Assembly (NCBI RefSeq): GCF_013839515.1
Contig: NZ_JACDNQ010000003.1
Location: forward strand, 1-64,000
Source of the DNA: Natronomonas salinimetallica
GTDB lineage: Archaea; Halobacteriota; Halobacteria; Halobacteriales; Haloarculaceae
Length of the DNA stretch: 64,000 bases
Direction of reading: 5' to 3'
Shown: positions 25,259-36,145 of the stretch, in pieces
Layout of the letters: every line of letters starts with the position of its first letter
Numbering within the stretch: the first letter of the stretch is position 1
Translations under genes and position numbers: made by a program
The notes under the pieces: generated by a model
Seen by the model: the letters and a program-made list of their open reading frames with translations, nothing else
The model's database searches: none
Told to the model about the DNA's origin: nothing

Positions 25259-28200
25259 ATGAATGACCCTCCGACCACCCCTGCTGCTGGAAAAGACGAG
25301 TTCGTCGAGGACGTCATCATCGAGTACCTCGACCTCTACACAGAGATTCAAGAAGGAGAACGCGCTGAACACGATTTAATGCCTCGGCTCGTAGATCACC
25401 TCTTCATTAACGCCCTCGGCTGGGAGAAATCCGACTACACCCAAGAAGACGACTGGAACGATGTCCGATTTTACGATGACGACAGAAACCCAGCCATCAT
25501 CGTCGAAGGGAAGCGCCGCGACGTGGATGTCGAAGAAGGAATTCAGCAAGTCTTCAGATATGCCTCAGAAACTCCCTACGCTCGCTATCTCATCTCTACC
25601 AACGTAGACAAATTCATCGTCTACAAGCGATGCGACGACACCTACGAAAACGCGGTCACCCACCACGGAGTATCCGCTCGCAAAGTCGCTGACGTGCCCT
25701 TCCAAGGGATCTGTAACCGCGCAAGCGGAAACGCCATCAGCAGCGACCTCACGCTCCAAGAACGACAAGCAATCAAGCAACTCTTCCAACTCCGTCGCGA
25801 AGAAGTCACAAACGCGGAACGCTACGGAGACTTCACTCTTACCAGTAGACAAGATGTCGATACCGACACTGGGTTCGACAACCTCATTGACTCTCTCAGG
25901 CTCTGCCTCGAAGACTATCTCTTACCGTACACGCTCTCCGCGTTCGACGAGTTCACCGAACGTTACAAAGAATTCGAGAGAGAACGCCGCGACCTCAAGA
26001 ATCAAATCGAACAACTCGAAGAAATCGGACACGACGACTCCGAAATCGCGACCCTCCGTAACAAACTCAGCGAACTCGAAGACGAATACGAAGTCTACCA
26101 GCGCTTCCATTCTGACTACGGAACCTGGGTACAGCTCTCGAATCGCCAAGACAATGACGAAGAGGAGAACAAGGAGGTCTTTTGCCGGGAATCAGTGTAT
26201 GTCCAACTCAACAAAATCCTCCTCATCCGCATCGCCGAAGACAAAGACCTCGTTAATACAATGGTCTCCAACGGCGGGGTGCATCGGTACTTCGACTTCT
26301 GGGAAGACTACACCCGTTATGTCTCTCGCGACTATATCGACCTATTCGAAACCGCGTCTGAGGAGCTCAGTGAGGTCTACGACTACCTGTACTCCCGGCG
26401 ACTCTTCGACTGGGAGATCCAGCCCGATAGCGACCTGAACGATGTCCTACAACGCACACTCTGGCATCTAAACCACTTCGACTTTGAGAACGTTGATAGG
26501 GATGTTCTCGGCCACCTATACCAAGAACACCTCCCGCCAGAGGAACGCAAAGCCCTCGGTGAATTCTACACACCAACAGCCGTCGTAGACCTGATCCTCG
26601 ACAGTGTTGGGTACACCTCAGACAAACAGCTCGAACGGCAAGAATACGACCTCATCGACCCTGCGTGCGGATCCGGTACATTCCTTGTCCGTGCGGCAGG
26701 GCGGCTCCTCGACAGACTCGACAAGAAGGGTGTACCGCCACGTGATGCCATCGAAATCGTTCAACAACGCATCCACGGGCTCGACCTGAACCCCTTTGCG
26801 TGCCACATCGCCGAACTCAACCTGCTGTTCCAGGTCATCGACCTGTACAAAAATGTCAAAGATGAAAATCCCGAGTACACGCTTGATAGGTTCCAAATCT
26901 ATCGAACTGACAGTCTTCGGAATGAGGCGAAAGAGAGTTTAGCAACGCTCCAGAGCTCAGCGATACAGCGACAATACCGTGAAGAACGCCGGCGTGCCTC
27001 TCAAATCAAGGAACGCGAAGACTACGGTTTCGTAGTCGGGAACCCACCGTACGTCCGTATTCAAAACCTCGCGAAAGGTCAGGCACGAGAGGAATACGAC
27101 GATTACGACACCGCGCACTACAACTACGACATTTACATCCTGTTCATCGAACGAGCCGCCAAATGGCTCGCAGAAGACGGCCAGCTTGGATACATAATTT
27201 CCAACAAGTTCACCGAAAACCGCTACGGAGAGAAAATCCAGGACTACATCTTACAACACTACCATCTGCAGGAAATCATCAACTTCGGCGACGTGAGTGT
27301 GTTCGAAGGCGTACAGTCCTATCCGATGATCATCACCGGTAAACGCATCAACAAAGACCAGGGCTCTAGCCTGAGGGGCGATTATCGACTTCCTGAGGAC
27401 TACGCGTTCACGTACGCTGAGGTTACTGAACGTCTCCCGGAGATCACGCAAACTGCGCTCACAAGTGGTGACGAAGAACTAACTAGCGCTGAAGAGCGCG
27501 AACAGGAAGGTGGGAAGATTGCCGAGATTATTCGAGCCAGTGTTCCTAGCAAACATGGAGAGGAGCCACCGAGCGAAGAAAAGGTACTGAGCCGTCTCGA
27601 GGACATCGCCCCCAGCGTCGAACTGGAGAAACCTCCGCTCAAAACGTACCCGATGAACGCGTCCGGGCTGCTAGACGCGGATGAATGGCAGTTCGTTCCG
27701 AAAGACGAATATGACGTGCTTGAAGCCATGGAGGCCGGCGGGCGTGAGTTCGACGAGTACGAGGGATCTATCGCTAAGAACGGGATACAGACGGGGTCAA
27801 ACGATGTATTCGTCCTCGACCAAGCAACGATCAATGAGTACGATATCGAGGGCGAGGTCGTGTTTCCCACAATTGGTGGACGCGACATCACTCGCTGGTA
27901 CACCCCTCGGCAGGACAAGTACATCTTGTATATGACTCCAGATGCTGACCTCGACGAAACTCTTGGAGCGAAAGCATATCTCGAAGCAAACCGCGAAGAG
28001 CTGGAGTCTCGTTACTGCGTTGAGCAGGGGAAACACTGGTACCAACTAGCGCGCCATCGCCCAGGAATCTTCGCACGGGAAAAAGTGATTACGCCCGACA
28101 TCTGCTACTACAACAACTTCTTCCACGACAAGGATACAGAGTTCCACGCTCTCAACAGCGCCTACGTCCTCTATGCCGATAATCTCGCGAACAACTACCT

Positions 28201-28882
28201 CGTAGGTGTTCTGAACAGCGACGCCGTTCAATTCTACATGAGGAGAACGGCACCGCAGTACGGAAACGACTACCTCCGCTACGTGACGAGCTACCTCTTC
28301 GAGATCCCGATCCCCGACCCAGAAAACAACGAGGGGGATCTCGTTGAAACGGTCAAAGAGGCTTCGGACTCGCTGAGAGAATTGGCGAAGGACTACCGGG
28401 AAGCCAAAGGCCTCCTCGAAGCACCCGAAAAAGTGTACGAGCGAACTTCAGGCGTCGAGATATCGACCCTCTCCTTCGCAGGATACATCGATGCGATGAA
28501 TATCAGTGGTGAAGGTGGGGACGTGTCCGCCACGGTCGATGGGGACACCGTTCGACTGAACGTACAGGATGAGATCTCGTTCGTGTCTGAACGTGAAGCG
28601 GCGGCGTTTGAGTCACTTCTTCAAGCGTTCGAGGTTGACTCGGTTGATGTGCTTGAGGATCTTGAGGTTCCGAAGTCTACTGAGGGGTTGTTACAGGTTG
28701 TAGATGCGTTTGAGGAGGCGGACCGACTGCGTAAAGAAGCGGTGAGCGACGCCGCAGAACTCGAAAAGACACTGAACGATGCGGTATACAAGCTCTATGG
28801 GTTCGACGACGAGCACCGAGAGTTGATTGAGGAACGCATTGATAAGCCAGAAGATCTACTGGAGGCAAAGGTAAGGACGTAG
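25259..28882 (+). CDS. type IIG-like restriction-modification enzyme (nuclease-methylase-specificity fusion)
   Basis: A 1207-residue single-chain enzyme. The N-terminal 150 residues resemble the HsdR_N endonuclease fold: a D-rich stretch, then PAIIVEGKRRD with the E-x-K pair near 84-86. A coiled-coil helical connector follows (about 230-290). The gamma-type N6-adenine methylase domain starts with GEFYTPTAVVDLIL, has motif I DPACGSGTF (467-475) and motif IV NPPYV (595-599). The remainder includes a TaqI/Eco57I-like target-recognition region (GNDYLRYVTSYLFEIPIPDP near 1010-1035). Cleavage and methylation would be in one protein, as in type IIG systems such as Eco57I. All key residues look intact. 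Start ATG at 25259 fits the TATA position. Confidence 0.87.
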   Translation: MNDPPTTPAAGKDEFVEDVIIEYLDLYTEIQEGERAEHDLMPRLVDHLFINALGWEKSDYTQEDDWNDVRFYDDDRNPAIIVEGKRRDVDVEEGIQQVFRYASETPYARYLISTNVDKFIVYKRCDDTYENAVTHHGVSARKVADVPFQGICNRASGNAISSDLTLQERQAIKQLFQLRREEVTNAERYGDFTLTSRQDVDTDTGFDNLIDSLRLCLEDYLLPYTLSAFDEFTERYKEFERERRDLKNQIEQLEEIGHDDSEIATLRNKLSELEDEYEVYQRFHSDYGTWVQLSNRQDNDEEENKEVFCRESVYVQLNKILLIRIAEDKDLVNTMVSNGGVHRYFDFWEDYTRYVSRDYIDLFETASEELSEVYDYLYSRRLFDWEIQPDSDLNDVLQRTLWHLNHFDFENVDRDVLGHLYQEHLPPEERKALGEFYTPTAVVDLILDSVGYTSDKQLERQEYDLIDPACGSGTFLVRAAGRLLDRLDKKGVPPRDAIEIVQQRIHGLDLNPFACHIAELNLLFQVIDLYKNVKDENPEYTLDRFQIYRTDSLRNEAKESLATLQSSAIQRQYREERRRASQIKEREDYGFVVGNPPYVRIQNLAKGQAREEYDDYDTAHYNYDIYILFIERAAKWLAEDGQLGYIISNKFTENRYGEKIQDYILQHYHLQEIINFGDVSVFEGVQSYPMIITGKRINKDQGSSLRGDYRLPEDYAFTYAEVTERLPEITQTALTSGDEELTSAEEREQEGGKIAEIIRASVPSKHGEEPPSEEKVLSRLEDIAPSVELEKPPLKTYPMNASGLLDADEWQFVPKDEYDVLEAMEAGGREFDEYEGSIAKNGIQTGSNDVFVLDQATINEYDIEGEVVFPTIGGRDITRWYTPRQDKYILYMTPDADLDETLGAKAYLEANREELESRYCVEQGKHWYQLARHRPGIFAREKVITPDICYYNNFFHDKDTEFHALNSAYVLYADNLANNYLVGVLNSDAVQFYMRRTAPQYGNDYLRYVTSYLFEIPIPDPENNEGDLVETVKEASDSLRELAKDYREAKGLLEAPEKVYERTSGVEISTLSFAGYIDAMNISGEGGDVSATVDGDTVRLNVQDEISFVSEREAAAFESLLQAFEVDSVDVLEDLEVPKSTEGLLQVVDAFEEADRLRKEAVSDAAELEKTLNDAVYKLYGFDDEHRELIEERIDKPEDLLEAKVRT

Positions 28883-28965
28883 ATGCGGCAGTACTCCCTC
28901 GGTGAGTCGGTACGTATCGATATTCCGGATCCGACGACTGCTGGATCCCCGTCTCTGAACCCCTT

Positions 28966-29043
28966 CGTTTCCCCTCGAACGAGCGCTTCAAACTCCGCAG
29001 ATTCGTACTGCTCGCGATGAGCCAGCACTCGCTGCCCTGACAC
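28966..29043 (-). pseudogene. truncated duplicate of the phiH1-repressor-like regulator
   Basis: On the minus strand this reads SGQRVLAHREQYESAEFEAL then VRGETKGF, which matches the C-terminal end of the intact gene at 31183-31464 (SGERALAHREQYGSAEFEAL). The DNA at 28966-29033 and 31192-31260 differs at only a few positions. The DNA-binding N-terminal two thirds are missing. The break coincides with an inverted-repeat-like sequence starting at 29048, so a mobile element probably cut it. Confidence 0.75.
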
Positions 29044-29047
29044 GAGC

Positions 29048-29105
29048 CTGTCATAGAAAGCGTCGCGTACGAAGCAGCAGGGTGCGGGAACTGTTGCATG
29101 ACACT
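29048..29105. repeat. inverted-repeat relic related to the 35.6-36.0 kb mini-element
   Basis: TGTCATAGAA begins at about 29049 and the opposite end reads GGAACTGTTGCATGACAC (up to 29104), close to the right end of the 397-bp element (GCGAACTGTTCTATGACAC). A third CTCATAGAAC lies at about 29106. The interior is only some 30 bases. It looks like fused or decayed ends of the same transposon family. Confidence 0.5.
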
Positions 29106-29250
29106 CTCATAGAACACATCCAGTAAAATCAAAGAGCAATCAGTAGAGATGAGATGAATCACGTTAATATTGAATAACCTGGCGGAACACACGAGCTGCG
29201 AAGGCCATAGTATATCAATACTTATCGGCGTCCTCTATGACCACATCAAC

Positions 29251-31182: not shown

Positions 31183-31464
31183 TTACCACTCCGTTTCCCC
31201 TCGAACGAGCGCTTCGAACTCCGCGGATCCGTACTGTTCGCGATGAGCCAGCGCTCGTTCCCCCGAGGCAGTAATCTCGTAGAGTCCGGACCTGTCGCCC
31301 GGCCCGATTCGTACGACGAGCCCATAGTCCAGCAGCGCCGGCAGCCGCGTATTGATATAGGCACGATCGCGATCGAGACGCTCGGCGATGTTCACCGCCA
31401 CGTCACGTTTTCCACCGGAGAGTGCAGCTAGGATATCGAAGTCGGTCGGCCGTGTGAGTCGCAT
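31183..31464 (-). CDS. winged-helix regulator, phiH1-repressor-like
   Basis: A 93-residue winged helix-turn-helix protein (MRLTRPTDFDILAALSGGKR, then the recognition-helix region IAERLDRDRAYINTRLPALL and a wing LVVRIGPGDRSGLYEIT). It resembles the small repressors of haloarchaeal virus phiH1 and relatives. It ends SAEFEALVRGETEW, and a diverged copy of that end lies at 28966-29043. Targets unknown; an adjacent element gene is likely. Confidence 0.8.
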   Translation of the reverse strand: MRLTRPTDFDILAALSGGKRDVAVNIAERLDRDRAYINTRLPALLDYGLVVRIGPGDRSGLYEITASGERALAHREQYGSAEFEALVRGETEW

Positions 31465-31760: not shown

Positions 31761-34250
31761 ATGTCTACCGATAATACAACTCAAAAGGTTCTTGACGCCT
31801 TCCAAGCTGAAGCACGAGATGATACAGAGATCACGATCGAAATAAACGGAAATATTCTGAGGGAGGTCTCTTCACAATTATACGACAATCCTCGAAGGGC
31901 CATAGAAGAACTCGTTTGTAATAGCTACGATGCCTACGCTACCGAATGTTATGTCTCTACTCCGAATGATGAAGACGATGTTCTGCAGGTCCTTGATAAC
32001 GGGAAATCGATGGACGAAGATGAGCTGGGTGATATGTGGGAGGTTGCTGGAGGTCCGAAACAAAAGCTTGCAGAGAAGGGTGTGGAACGAGAGATAGAGG
32101 GTAGGAAGCAGATTGGCCGTTTCGGTGTAGGAAAATTAGCTGCTTTCGCTATCGGCAGTGAATTAACTCACGTAGCCACTGTTGATGGTACAACGAGAAT
32201 TATTTCAGTTTCTCAGGGAGCTATCCGGAATCAGAGCTTTACTGACCCACCAACTACGAAAATATGGGAGGTAGAGGAAGATCGGGCACGTGAGCTCCTT
32301 GGCTCATATTTAGATGGGATTCCCGACCCTTGGGAAAAAGATTGGGAGAGCTGGACTCTTGCTGTCGTTGACGACGTTGATGAAGAGAATACAGGACGGA
32401 GGCTGAAGCCGGAGCATCTAAATCGTATGATTCGGACGGCTATTCCGTTAGAAGCGGATTTTGAGGTGGCAAGGAATGGAGATAAAATCCAGCCCAGAAA
32501 CCTCACAGAGTCCGTTGACGTTAAATTGGACATTTCCCAGGATGAAGAGTACCAAACGAAATTAAAGAAAGAGCTTCAGAAATTTTGGTCTGAGTACCGG
32601 GAGGATATTGATGATGAAGATGATGTTCCGGATAGGTTACTAAATCTTGACCCCGTATATGATGATTCTCACTACGCTGTGGACTCGGAAGAGTTGGAGG
32701 ACTCAAACGGGACTCCCGAGCCGAATGCTCTTAAGATTCCTAAACTAGGCGTTGTACATGGCGAAGCTGCAATATATTCGGAAACTCTCACCCCAAGAAA
32801 ATTGGCAAGTAGAGACATATACGACCACGGTCACAAGGTGCGCGTACGTGGGAAGTTACTCAACCGGACTGACCCTCTCTTTGGAACTTCCCCAAAATCA
32901 CACAAGTTCTGGAATAGGTTCCGATCTGAGTTCGAAATGCCGGTTCTGGACGATGATCTTCTTGTTCAGAGAGATACACTCCAAGATGGTGTCCACAAAG
33001 AGGTTAGCAAGAAAGTTCTAGATAGCGTATTTAATATTCTTCGCACCCGCGCAGATGAAGAAGAAGAAACGGATCCTGGGCGGTTTGGACACCATCTACA
33101 TACCTTATCACCTGGGAAAGCAGGAGAGGCCCTCGCAGGACTCACAGGAGAAGATGCTGAATTCCCTGAAGGCGGATGGGATGACGTCGACGTAGAGTTA
33201 GCAGAGTTCGAAAAAACTGATAGTGCAGTAGAATACGATGACTCAGACCACGCAATCTACATCAATGATAACCATCCTCTATTCACCGCGCTTGAGGAAC
33301 GAAACGCACCTACGAAACTTCGGAAAGTTGTGGGTGAGGCATTAGCTGGTAACGAGATTGCGTTTGGGTATTTAACATTCTCTGGCGTCCGTAAGGATTT
33401 GATTCAGGATGGGAAAGATATCTCAGAGACAGCCTTAGAAATTGCTTCCCGATATATCGAGGACCCCTTTGACTACCACAAAGAGCAGGTGAAGAAAATG
33501 TCGCACGAGACTGATGACCCATTCGAAGAATCAATTGTTGACGCTTTGAACGAACTGGGCGTTACGACGGACCATATGGGCGGATCAGGGGATTCTGACG
33601 CTGTCGCTAAGTTCGCTACGCCCGATAATGAAGAAGATATCGTCATCTCAATCGAGGCAAAGGGTGCAGAGGAGGGGAGTGTTTCACACTCTGAGGCTAA
33701 TATTGCAACCATCCGGGAACACATGCAGCAAGATGAGTGCAACCATGCTCTCCTCGTTGCTCGAGAATTCACTAAACGAGGCACGGAGAAGAATGAAGAC
33801 GGTGAATACGTAGATAGTAAACTCATTAACCAATTAGGGATGTATGAAGATGTATCAGCCATTAATATTGAGGCGTTCCAGCATCTCTTAGAAACTCATA
33901 GAGATACGCCACTTGATCATCGGCAACTCCAGAAGATCCTCACCAATCAAAAACACCCTGAGGAGCTTGTTGGCTTTATTGATGAGTGTGCTCAGGCAAT
34001 GCCTGCAGAACCTGAAGTTATGTACCGCGTTCTGGAGGTGGCGTGGGAGATTCAAAAACAGGACGACCGTTCTCAGAGAATTGGTCTAATAATGGGAGAG
34101 GTGGATATAGATGACAACCACGTAATTAGCATACTTGATGCGGCGCAAGTAAGCACCGGGATGGTTGTACTAAGAGAAAATGAAAGCAAGTTTTCCATTT
34201 TCCAAACACCGAACCAGGTGATGCGAGCGATGGGGGCCAATCGAAGCTAA
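31761..34250 (+). CDS. GHKL ATPase fused to a PD-(D/E)XK-like nuclease
   Basis: An 829-residue protein. Residues about 48-130 hold the GHKL (Hsp90/MutL) motifs: N box EELVCNSYDA (about 49), G1 DNGKSMD (79-85), G2 GRFGVGKLAAF (119-129). The middle is a transducer-like region. The C-terminal part has a nuclease-like core: GGSGDSDAVAKF then IVISIEAKG (acidic residue near 612, E632-x-K634), followed by helices. GHKL proteins of this kind in restriction-modification operons were described by Iyer, Abhiman and Aravind (2008) as relatives of MORC ATPases. It lies 57 bases before a DNA methyltransferase. Codon use is AT-richer than the host genes, which suggests recent transfer. Confidence 0.8.
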   Translation: MSTDNTTQKVLDAFQAEARDDTEITIEINGNILREVSSQLYDNPRRAIEELVCNSYDAYATECYVSTPNDEDDVLQVLDNGKSMDEDELGDMWEVAGGPKQKLAEKGVEREIEGRKQIGRFGVGKLAAFAIGSELTHVATVDGTTRIISVSQGAIRNQSFTDPPTTKIWEVEEDRARELLGSYLDGIPDPWEKDWESWTLAVVDDVDEENTGRRLKPEHLNRMIRTAIPLEADFEVARNGDKIQPRNLTESVDVKLDISQDEEYQTKLKKELQKFWSEYREDIDDEDDVPDRLLNLDPVYDDSHYAVDSEELEDSNGTPEPNALKIPKLGVVHGEAAIYSETLTPRKLASRDIYDHGHKVRVRGKLLNRTDPLFGTSPKSHKFWNRFRSEFEMPVLDDDLLVQRDTLQDGVHKEVSKKVLDSVFNILRTRADEEEETDPGRFGHHLHTLSPGKAGEALAGLTGEDAEFPEGGWDDVDVELAEFEKTDSAVEYDDSDHAIYINDNHPLFTALEERNAPTKLRKVVGEALAGNEIAFGYLTFSGVRKDLIQDGKDISETALEIASRYIEDPFDYHKEQVKKMSHETDDPFEESIVDALNELGVTTDHMGGSGDSDAVAKFATPDNEEDIVISIEAKGAEEGSVSHSEANIATIREHMQQDECNHALLVAREFTKRGTEKNEDGEYVDSKLINQLGMYEDVSAINIEAFQHLLETHRDTPLDHRQLQKILTNQKHPEELVGFIDECAQAMPAEPEVMYRVLEVAWEIQKQDDRSQRIGLIMGEVDIDDNHVISILDAAQVSTGMVVLRENESKFSIFQTPNQVMRAMGANRS

Positions 34251-34307
34251 GAAAAAACATCGGATTTCTTATCGAAAGCTTGACGTCGACGAACGCTAAG
34301 TAAGAAT

Positions 34308-35621
34308 ATGAGCAGCCAAAGTGGGGACGAACTAAAGCCACTAGATTTACCGAATCGGCAAGAGTACACACATCGGGCACACCGTTTCCCAGGTAAGTTT
34401 CACCCACCGCTTATCGCAAAGATAATCGAAGATCACCCTGAATACGATGTTATAGCGGATCCTATGTGTGGATCCGGAACCGTCGCTGTGGAAAGTGCGG
34501 TCGCTGGTCGAGAAGCCCTCTGTATCGATATTGACCCCCTCAGCGAGCTGATGACACGTGCGAAGTCGCAGCCGATCCCAACCGACGAACTCCTTGACGT
34601 CGGTGAAGAGATTCTGTCGGCGTCAGGGCCTGTACCTGAAGAGGGGGAACTGAGTGAGGATGAAGCTCGAGAAGAGGTCAAGTCAAACCTCTCTGGGACA
34701 CGGTACTGTGTTCCGTACAACCTTCTCCACTGGTTCGATCCATATGTTGCCGTCGGATTTTCTCGCCTTCTCTCAACCGCTAATGCGGTGCTGGAGGACG
34801 AGAGTGATGAGATTGCCGATGCAATCCACCTATGCTTTGCAGCATCTGTTCGCCGTATTTCTAGGGCAGATCCACAGCCGGTAAGCGGCTTAGAGGTTAC
34901 AAAAGTCCGACGACAGGAGCTAGAGAAAGGCATTGACTTTGACGTCACTGGTACGTTTGAACAGGTACTCAACCGCCTTGGAGCAGGTTACGACGAGCTC
35001 CATGATATTGACGAACTCGGTGATGTGACTACGGTCCACGGTAATGCGAAAAACTTCGAAGGGGTCTGTGAGGAACACAATAAACAACCAGAACTCGTCA
35101 TCACGTCACCGCCATATTGCATGGCCATCGAGTACCACCGACGTCACCGTCTCGAGTATGAATGGCTTGGTCTATTCAATGACGAGGATGTCGAAGACCA
35201 GCGAAATGAACGGATAGAAACGTCTAGAGATTTCTTTGGCAGCACCTCAGCAAAACAAGATACGTTACGGAATCTTCCAGAAATCAAGCATGAGGAGATC
35301 TCTACCCTTATGAACAACATTGAGGAAGACGGGAAAGAACGGAAAGCGAACCTTCTGCGAAAGTACTTTCTTGACGCTTATGACTGGATTGAACAGGTCA
35401 AAAAAGCACTGCCAGAGGGGGGGCTGTTCTGTATGACTGTTGGACCTAGCACCTCATACGGCCATTCAATCGATACACCGAAGTTCCTTACTGATATTGC
35501 AAAGGAGGTCGGTTTTGAGGTAGTGTCTGAACAAGCATACAAGTTAACAAATAATAAGATGCAGTACCCCACTGACGGCGAGACTACTGAGATGGAGTCA
35601 TTGATCAAACTTCGCGTATAG
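34308..35621 (+). CDS. DNA methyltransferase paired with the GHKL-nuclease
   Basis: A 437-residue site-specific DNA methyltransferase. AdoMet motif I is DPMCGSGTV (51-59), preceded by the FPGKFHPPLIAKII segment found in N4/N6-aminomethylases, and the catalytic motif is TSPPY (266-270). The TSPPY form is common in N4-cytosine enzymes but does not decide the base. No separate specificity subunit is visible. Together with the ATPase-nuclease it should form a two-gene modification-restriction unit. The mini-element follows six bases after the stop. Confidence 0.85.
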   Translation: MSSQSGDELKPLDLPNRQEYTHRAHRFPGKFHPPLIAKIIEDHPEYDVIADPMCGSGTVAVESAVAGREALCIDIDPLSELMTRAKSQPIPTDELLDVGEEILSASGPVPEEGELSEDEAREEVKSNLSGTRYCVPYNLLHWFDPYVAVGFSRLLSTANAVLEDESDEIADAIHLCFAASVRRISRADPQPVSGLEVTKVRRQELEKGIDFDVTGTFEQVLNRLGAGYDELHDIDELGDVTTVHGNAKNFEGVCEEHNKQPELVITSPPYCMAIEYHRRHRLEYEWLGLFNDEDVEDQRNERIETSRDFFGSTSAKQDTLRNLPEIKHEEISTLMNNIEEDGKERKANLLRKYFLDAYDWIEQVKKALPEGGLFCMTVGPSTSYGHSIDTPKFLTDIAKEVGFEVVSEQAYKLTNNKMQYPTDGETTEMESLIKLRV

Positions 35622-35682
35622 CGAGCGTGTCATAGAAGAGTTCTCATGGTTTGTTGAATCAGCTCTAACGAATTGAAAGCGC

Positions 35683-35699
35683 CGTGCACTTGGTGCACG
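35683..35699. promoter_or_regulatory. palindromic operator candidate, upstream copy
   Basis: CGTGCAC-TTG-GTGCACG lies 22 bases before the ribbon-helix-helix start codon, where a repressor would block transcription. The same half-sites recur at 35937-35953. Confidence 0.6.
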
Positions 35700-35721
35700 C
35701 TGTTCTTAGATTGTCGTAGCT

Positions 35722-35862
35722 ATGGCGAAAGAGAAGTTCGGAGTCGCTGTTGACGAGGAAATCGTGCGAGAAGTGGATGAACTAGTCGCTGAGTGTGACG
35801 ATCTCGGAGTCAGCCGCTCCGAGATCGTCGAAGCGATCCTCACAGCATCCGTTCAATCCTAG
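35722..35862 (+). CDS. ribbon-helix-helix (CopG-like) DNA-binding protein
   Basis: A 46-residue protein: a short basic strand (MAKEKFGVAVDEEI) and two helices (VREVDELVAECDDLG and SRSEIVEAILTASV). This is the RHH fold of CopG/Arc-type dimeric repressors. It lies inside the 397-bp inverted-repeat element and is flanked on both sides by an identical-half-site palindrome, so autoregulation is likely. It might serve as a partitioning or antitoxin-like protein, but no partner gene is adjacent. Confidence 0.75.
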   Translation: MAKEKFGVAVDEEIVREVDELVAECDDLGVSRSEIVEAILTASVQS

Positions 35863-35936
35863 ACAAACCACGTTGAACGGGTGCGAGAAATCATTATTCG
35901 GAAACGAAAAGGCACTCTTTGACCGGTTCTAAACGT

Positions 35937-35953
35937 CGTGCACCCAGTGCACG
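35937..35953. promoter_or_regulatory. palindromic operator candidate, downstream copy
   Basis: CGTGCAC-CCA-GTGCACG has the same arms as the upstream site and only the three-base centre differs. Spacing between the two centres is 254 bases, which would allow looping by bound dimers. Confidence 0.6.
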
Positions 35954-36145
35954 CAACTCTAAGTCAGTAACCCGCTATAATAGTAATCAAACTGACTGTA
36001 GTATGCGAACTGTTCTATGACACCCTCATTGACATCTTAGCGCTTTCGTAACCTTGCAGAATCCGTCCTCAGAATAGAACTACGTGCCTCCATTTCGTAT
36101 AGCACTATATACTGTATAATAGGCCAAAACACCGCCAAATAGGCC

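Follow-up and report, generated by a model that had tools for sequence, protein, structure and literature searches.

A haloarchaeal mini-transposon with ISH11-type ends that encloses a ribbon-helix-helix gene between two palindromes

Judged by its copies, its ends and the target duplications of its relatives, a 405-bp stretch of Natronomonas salinimetallica is a real mini-transposon of salt-loving archaea that has moved repeatedly. It lies in the window analysed here, the first 64,000 nucleotides of contig NZ_JACDNQ010000003.1, and encloses a small ribbon-helix-helix (RHH) gene. Comparison of loci indicates that this gene and the two palindromes around it are a module also present between the ends of at least three further kinds of transposon, ISH2 among them. 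We read the element as a coding MITE, or minimal mobile insertion cassette, whose RHH protein would bind both palindromes, repress its own gene and control mobilisation in trans, and we give this reading a probability of roughly 60%.

The element in the window

The features of the element, and one related remnant, are as follows.

35623..36027, no strand: whole non-autonomous element of 405 bp with ISH11-type ends, probably of the MITEHsal2 type (inverted-repeat search, copy alignments)
35623..35647, + strand: left terminal inverted repeat GAGCGTGTCATAGAAGAGTTCTCAT, 25 nt
35683..35699, no strand: left palindrome CGTGCACTTGGTGCACG, 17 bp, putative RHH operator spanning -39 to -23 relative to the start codon
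35722..35862, + strand: RHH gene cut short to 46 aa by an internal TAG at 35860-35862 (ORF list, Pfam, copy comparison)
35722..35922, + strand: original RHH frame of 66 codons and a stop, preserved in copies C12 and C3 (copy comparison)
35937..35953, no strand: right palindrome CGTGCACCCAGTGCACG, 17 bp, putative second RHH operator at +215 relative to the start codon
36003..36027, - strand: right terminal inverted repeat, 25 nt
29044..29108, no strand: ISH11-type IS remnant of about 65 bp, no RHH element (end-pattern search, alignment)

The sequence-only reading had placed an inverted-repeat mini-element of 397 bp at 35627-36023. The element is real, but its edges lie 4 bp further out on each side, at 35623 and 36027, where the copy alignments stop at identical bases. 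The two arms match at 22 of 25 positions (88% complementary). They do enclose an RHH gene and two palindromes, as had been proposed: the ORF passes the gathering score of Pfam RHH_1 and both palindromes are present, and the gene is not part of a larger locus spanning the ends. The RHH frame is the sole gene within the 405 bp, and the ORF list and Pfam revealed no transposase gene between the ends, including a DDE transposase of the kind that makes ISH11 autonomous. The 15-bp end pattern, with at most 2 mismatches, was found 5 times in the window against 0.43 expected by chance, and 0 shuffles reached 5. The related ends at 29048-29105, previously taken as a sign that the family had moved here more than once, are indeed of ISH11 type, but they belong to the IS remnant and not to a second RHH element; 40 nt of this remnant are 95% identical to another IS left end of the same genome (L037). 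An Eco57I-type restriction-modification gene, a large HATPase gene and an N6/N4 DNA methylase gene are located at 25259-28882 and 31761-35621, and the stop codon of the methylase gene directly precedes the RHH element. An 82-bp direct repeat, 88% identical, occupies 28959-29040 and 31185-31266, its second copy falling within a 93-aa winged-helix-like ORF.

The gene had been described as an RHH gene of 46 residues; the family assignment stands, while the length turns out to be a truncation, because the other copies encode 66 residues and an internal TAG common to the window and C29 copies cuts the frame from 66 to 46. The assignment was based on Pfam together with a predicted strand-helix-helix order. 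The Pfam RHH_1 (PF01402) score was 24.3 bits for the window copy and 23.3 for the 66-aa form, with a gathering score of 20.5. The predicted structure of the protein comprises a strand region and helices at residues 12-24, 32-46 and 50-63 (pLDDT 82), and a Foldseek search with it gave no significant match, the best CopG match having an E value of 1.7. According to this model, truncation at residue 46 keeps the RHH core and loses the conserved third helix (...VREIIIRKRKGTL).

Copies, target duplications and the parent insertion sequence

Four copies of the element, 91-100% identical overall, are present in the genome of N. salinimetallica, namely the window copy and those on contigs C29 (99%), C12 (91%) and C3 (91%). 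The C12 and C3 copies are bordered by the direct repeats TGTGTGA and ATCGGAA, and no target duplication was found at the window and C29 copies. For the C12 copy (L003:1497-1901), which splits a 214-aa ORF, there is an empty site. Deleting the element together with one of the repeats restores the ORF; in a relative (L225) this ORF is unbroken, at 91% identity, the junction aligns gap-free at the DNA level, and the 7-bp TGTGTGA occurs there once. The broken ORF adjoins an apparent DNA methyltransferase gene, and a restriction enzyme may thus have been inactivated. Beyond this genome, the expectation that the ends would be found paired at a spacing of about 400 bp was borne out by 49 loci with both ISH11-type ends in many haloarchaeal genera of the same order. 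Their lengths span 395-407 bp, with 405 bp in 32 loci, 395 bp in 9, 404 bp in 6, and 406 and 407 bp also represented. An exact direct repeat of 5-12 bp, with a mode of 6-7, stands directly at the ends in 39 of the 49, as compared with 0.26% for mismatched flanks.

The window copy is the same as the C29 copy apart from four changes within the last 22 bp. The outermost 27 nt of its right end agree at 27 of 27 positions with the right end of an autonomous IS in another genome (G006) and at 23 of 27 with the sister copy, which suggests that the right end was replaced through recombination. Such an end exchange would be the likeliest reason for the missing repeat at this copy.

The element ends GAGSGTGTCATAGAA are common to ISH11 over the first 15 bp. 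ISH11, as annotated in pNRC100, is about 1068 bp long with GAGGGTGTCATAGAA at both ends and a 330-aa DDE transposase, and it provides a full-length IS with the same ends, which the sequence-only reading had proposed to look for; a relative with these ends is found in G006 (L040:2518-3586). This IS5-like element of Halobacterium salinarum also resembles the RHH element in a target duplication range of 6-9 bp (6, 8 and 9 bp according to PMC10264941), but differs in its size and transposase and in having neither the palindrome nor the RHH gene. An origin of the element as a deletion derivative of ISH11 was considered and rejected, the similarity to the IS ending after about 27 bp of the ends. We infer that an ISH11-type transposase acts in trans on the element, as the shared ends would allow. 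A full ISH11-type transposase was sought in the N. salinimetallica genome, and only a fragment near a contig end was found; mobilisation there may therefore have ceased, or the IS may have been lost in assembly, and present mobility within this genome is doubtful. As to its class, the element is short, has IS-related terminal inverted repeats and has no transposase gene, as MITEs do, and target duplications, absent at the window copy itself, are found in its relatives (5-12 bp in 39 of 49). It departs from MITEs in the narrow, non-coding sense because its RHH gene is under purifying selection, and it also agrees with a mobile insertion cassette or transporter IS, in that IS ends enclose a passenger gene and the transposase is absent.

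A gene and two palindromes within several types of ends

The survey comprised 96 typed loci, two of which are listed twice. Type A, with ISH11 ends, accounts for 49 loci with both ends, and 13 more have one type A end. Type B comprises 12 loci with ISH8-type ends, ISH2 itself included, type C 12 loci with CTGTCNCGTTTCGAGTATWTAA ends, and type D 2 loci whose CACTSGTTATCGCTT ends are common to an IS4-family transposase element; the other 8 of the 96 fall outside these groups. In a separate scan of species genomes, a recognisable end was present on at least one side at 67 of 72 loci. The two palindromes are 254 bp apart in most of types A and C, in type D and in L080, and 250-251 bp apart in ISH2-type copies; a loose search gives some spacings of 244-245 in type A, which a stricter search puts at 253-254. 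The arms outside the palindromes range from 60 to 173 bp. For type C, the search for an autonomous partner turned up IS4-family elements in G077 (L203, L204) that have a single end in common with it. The grouping in the protein tree follows end type, except that L080 carries ISH8-type ends and is placed next to the ISH11-type clade (support 98/95), which indicates an end swap; the alignments behind this tree are short (66 columns) and its deep forks uncertain. One type C element (L201:485-2270, G029) is about 1.8 kb long owing to the insertion of an IS605-type TnpB-like gene. At L068:1391-1906 (Halococcus thailandensis), the type D right arm is repeated with N between, possibly an assembly artefact.

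The type B and C proteins score below the PF01402 cut-off. Median dN/dS is 0.11 for types A and C and 0.29 for type B, the pairs not being independent, and by these ratios the complete RHH gene elsewhere is under purifying selection. Of 392 genomes sampled from the order, 43 carry RHH homologues, and these represent 24 of 95 genera. The collection of about 85,000 species genomes yielded 72 loci, all haloarchaeal and none outside Halobacteria, and no carriage by viruses was found in IMG/VR contigs or phage records.

All 8 exact CGTGCACNNNGTGCACG sites of the N. salinimetallica genome fall in the four elements, with one more site that has a mismatch, and no exact palindrome was found in two genomes without an RHH element. 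A host regulon for the palindrome was considered and rejected, there being no exact site in this genome beyond the four elements. In type C elements the palindrome GTTGCAGCNGCTGCAAC stands at the corresponding places instead of CGTGCACNNNGTGCACG, and the N-terminal strand of the protein is also altered (SNTEF vs KEKF or RTKM). RHH proteins read DNA through this strand. The two changes fit a co-change of protein and operator, seen as one event in one lineage.

A broader reading, possible although we hold it tentatively, is that the heritable unit would be the 271-bp RHH gene with its two cognate operators, which would have captured the ends of at least three to four IS types (ISH11, ISH8, CTGTC..CGAGTATWTAA and IS4-like). 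The protein would then act on the ends of the element that encodes it, for example by bridging them, and would regulate or favour its mobilisation by any transposase at hand. If this is true, a transposase-free element would possess its own mobilisation regulator.

Proposed role, alternatives and known relatives

In the mechanism proposed here, an ISH11-type transposase supplied in trans would cut and paste the element, and an RHH dimer would occupy both palindromes. Bound to the left one (-39 to -23), it would cover the promoter and thereby keep its own gene repressed. Occupation or bridging of the two sites, which lie 254 bp apart, may shape the DNA of the element, and so limit or assist the pairing of the ends by the borrowed transposase, which would make the RHH module useful to the element whichever IS provides the ends. 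The window copy, with its conserved C-terminal helix lost and its right end exchanged, would be decaying.

The main rival explanation, which we regard as unlikely, is that the RHH cassette is a plain autoregulated passenger with no part in transposition, any benefit of which would fall to the host or be incidental. The left palindrome is indeed placed where a leaderless archaeal promoter would be, and ISH11-type ends with target duplications also carry unrelated single genes (L034, L035), so that passengers need not serve transposition. However, a second palindrome lies 3' of the gene in all types at a fixed distance, and autorepression does not need it. The absence of palindromes elsewhere in the host genome suggests no host targets, and the occurrence of this module within four end types likewise speaks against a plain passenger.

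Two other roles of the protein have been weighed against control of the element's own mobilisation. That it is an orphan antitoxin or a superinfection-type immunity factor, with the cell depending on the element or resisting further copies, appears quite improbable. CopG/RHH proteins are commonly antitoxins, and RHH antitoxins are among the weak structural matches, but a search for a toxin ORF within the 405 bp found none, and up to 11 nearly identical copies in one genome (Halomicrobium katesii, G183) argue against strict exclusion. That the protein represses, in trans, the transposase gene of autonomous ISH11 or ISH8 seems highly improbable. The element and the IS do have ends and hosts in common, an ISH11-like transposase being present in 19 of 27 genomes with type A RHH and in 86 of the other 365; the enrichment is equally seen in genomes with other RHH types (10 of 13) and is not specific to type A, and the palindrome is absent from ISH11, ISH8B and the ISs of G006 and G183 even when 3 mismatches are allowed. 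The simplest alternative, an inverted repeat that arose by chance around an ordinary small gene, could appeal to the window copy taken alone, which has no target duplication; the copies, the target duplications, the empty site and the conserved length rule it out, and its probability is negligible.

A MITE-like element that encodes its own DNA-binding protein had been called unusual by the sequence-only reading. The description is supported, but "unusual" has to be read in the light of ISH2, a classic haloarchaeal mutator element that has been known as a coding MITE from the 1980s onwards. Like the element described here, ISH2 has no transposase, and its RHH protein is a homologue (53-57% identity) whose gene lies between a pair of CGTGCACNNNGTGCACG palindromes spaced 251 bp; ISH2 differs in its length of 521 bp, its ISH8-type ends, its target duplications of about 10 bp and its outer arms, which are about twice as long. 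MITEs are usually viewed as passive deletion products. In this transposase-free family, selection maintains one DNA-binding protein, which is accompanied by two dedicated sites and occurs within several IS end types. As ISH2 is a member of the family, the function of the ORF noted in it long ago can be tested directly in Halobacterium salinarum. PMC10264941 classes ISH2 as a MITE whose termini are related to those of ISH8 and which the ISH8 transposase mobilises, and the ISH2-encoded protein was detected by mass spectrometry (PMC10134880).

Plasmid pHSAL2 of H. salinarum strain 91-R6 carries an RHH element with ISH11-type ends (L077 2402-2806, 405 bp). The sizes listed for MITEHsal2 in the same strain, 411 and 413 bp, count in target duplications of 6 and 8 bp (PMC10264941, Table A2), and without these they come to 405 bp. 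By this likeness of length and strain the window element is probably of the MITEHsal2 type; in the accessible part of that paper MITEHsal2 appears as a table entry only and no mention is made of a protein. PMC3119063 notes an expressed ORF and, for Haloquadratum walsbyi, the elements HqIRS32, HqIRS33 and HqIRS34, one of them a MITE of the ISH2 type and the other two carrying "homologous short ORFs"; the accessible text of that paper does not term the ORF an RHH gene, name palindromes or draw a tie to ISH11-type ends. In the mobile insertion cassette MIC231 of Bacillus cereus, IS ends enclose a passenger gene and the transposase is absent (cited in PMC6542083). Unlike in cassettes of that type, the passenger here is a 66-aa putative DNA-binding protein that has its own paired sites and recurs with different IS ends. 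A search of the open-access literature found no paper joining MITEHsal2, ISH2 and the Haloquadratum elements as one RHH-operator module. What is new is thus the shared, end-swapping RHH-operator module, whereas MITEs with an ORF were already known from ISH2.

ISH11-type ends also enclose other cargo. In the N. salinimetallica genome, a 3.4-kb cassette (L034:3730-7128; C1:96729-100127) has a 9-bp duplication TCACGGAGT and no transposase; its sole gene encodes a 1039-aa receiver-GAF-PAS-histidine kinase, and two other sensor kinase genes lie on either side. A 1172-bp cassette on contig C7 (L035:2854-4025), flanked by the 6-bp duplication ATCGAA, encodes a membrane protein (321-aa ORF, hydrophobic stretches) for which Pfam gave no match. 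A 562-bp cassette found in G007 (L041:3246-3807) and at L045:1275-1836 holds a further small DNA-binding passenger, a helix-hairpin-helix protein of 60 aa (HHH_2, 3e-9).
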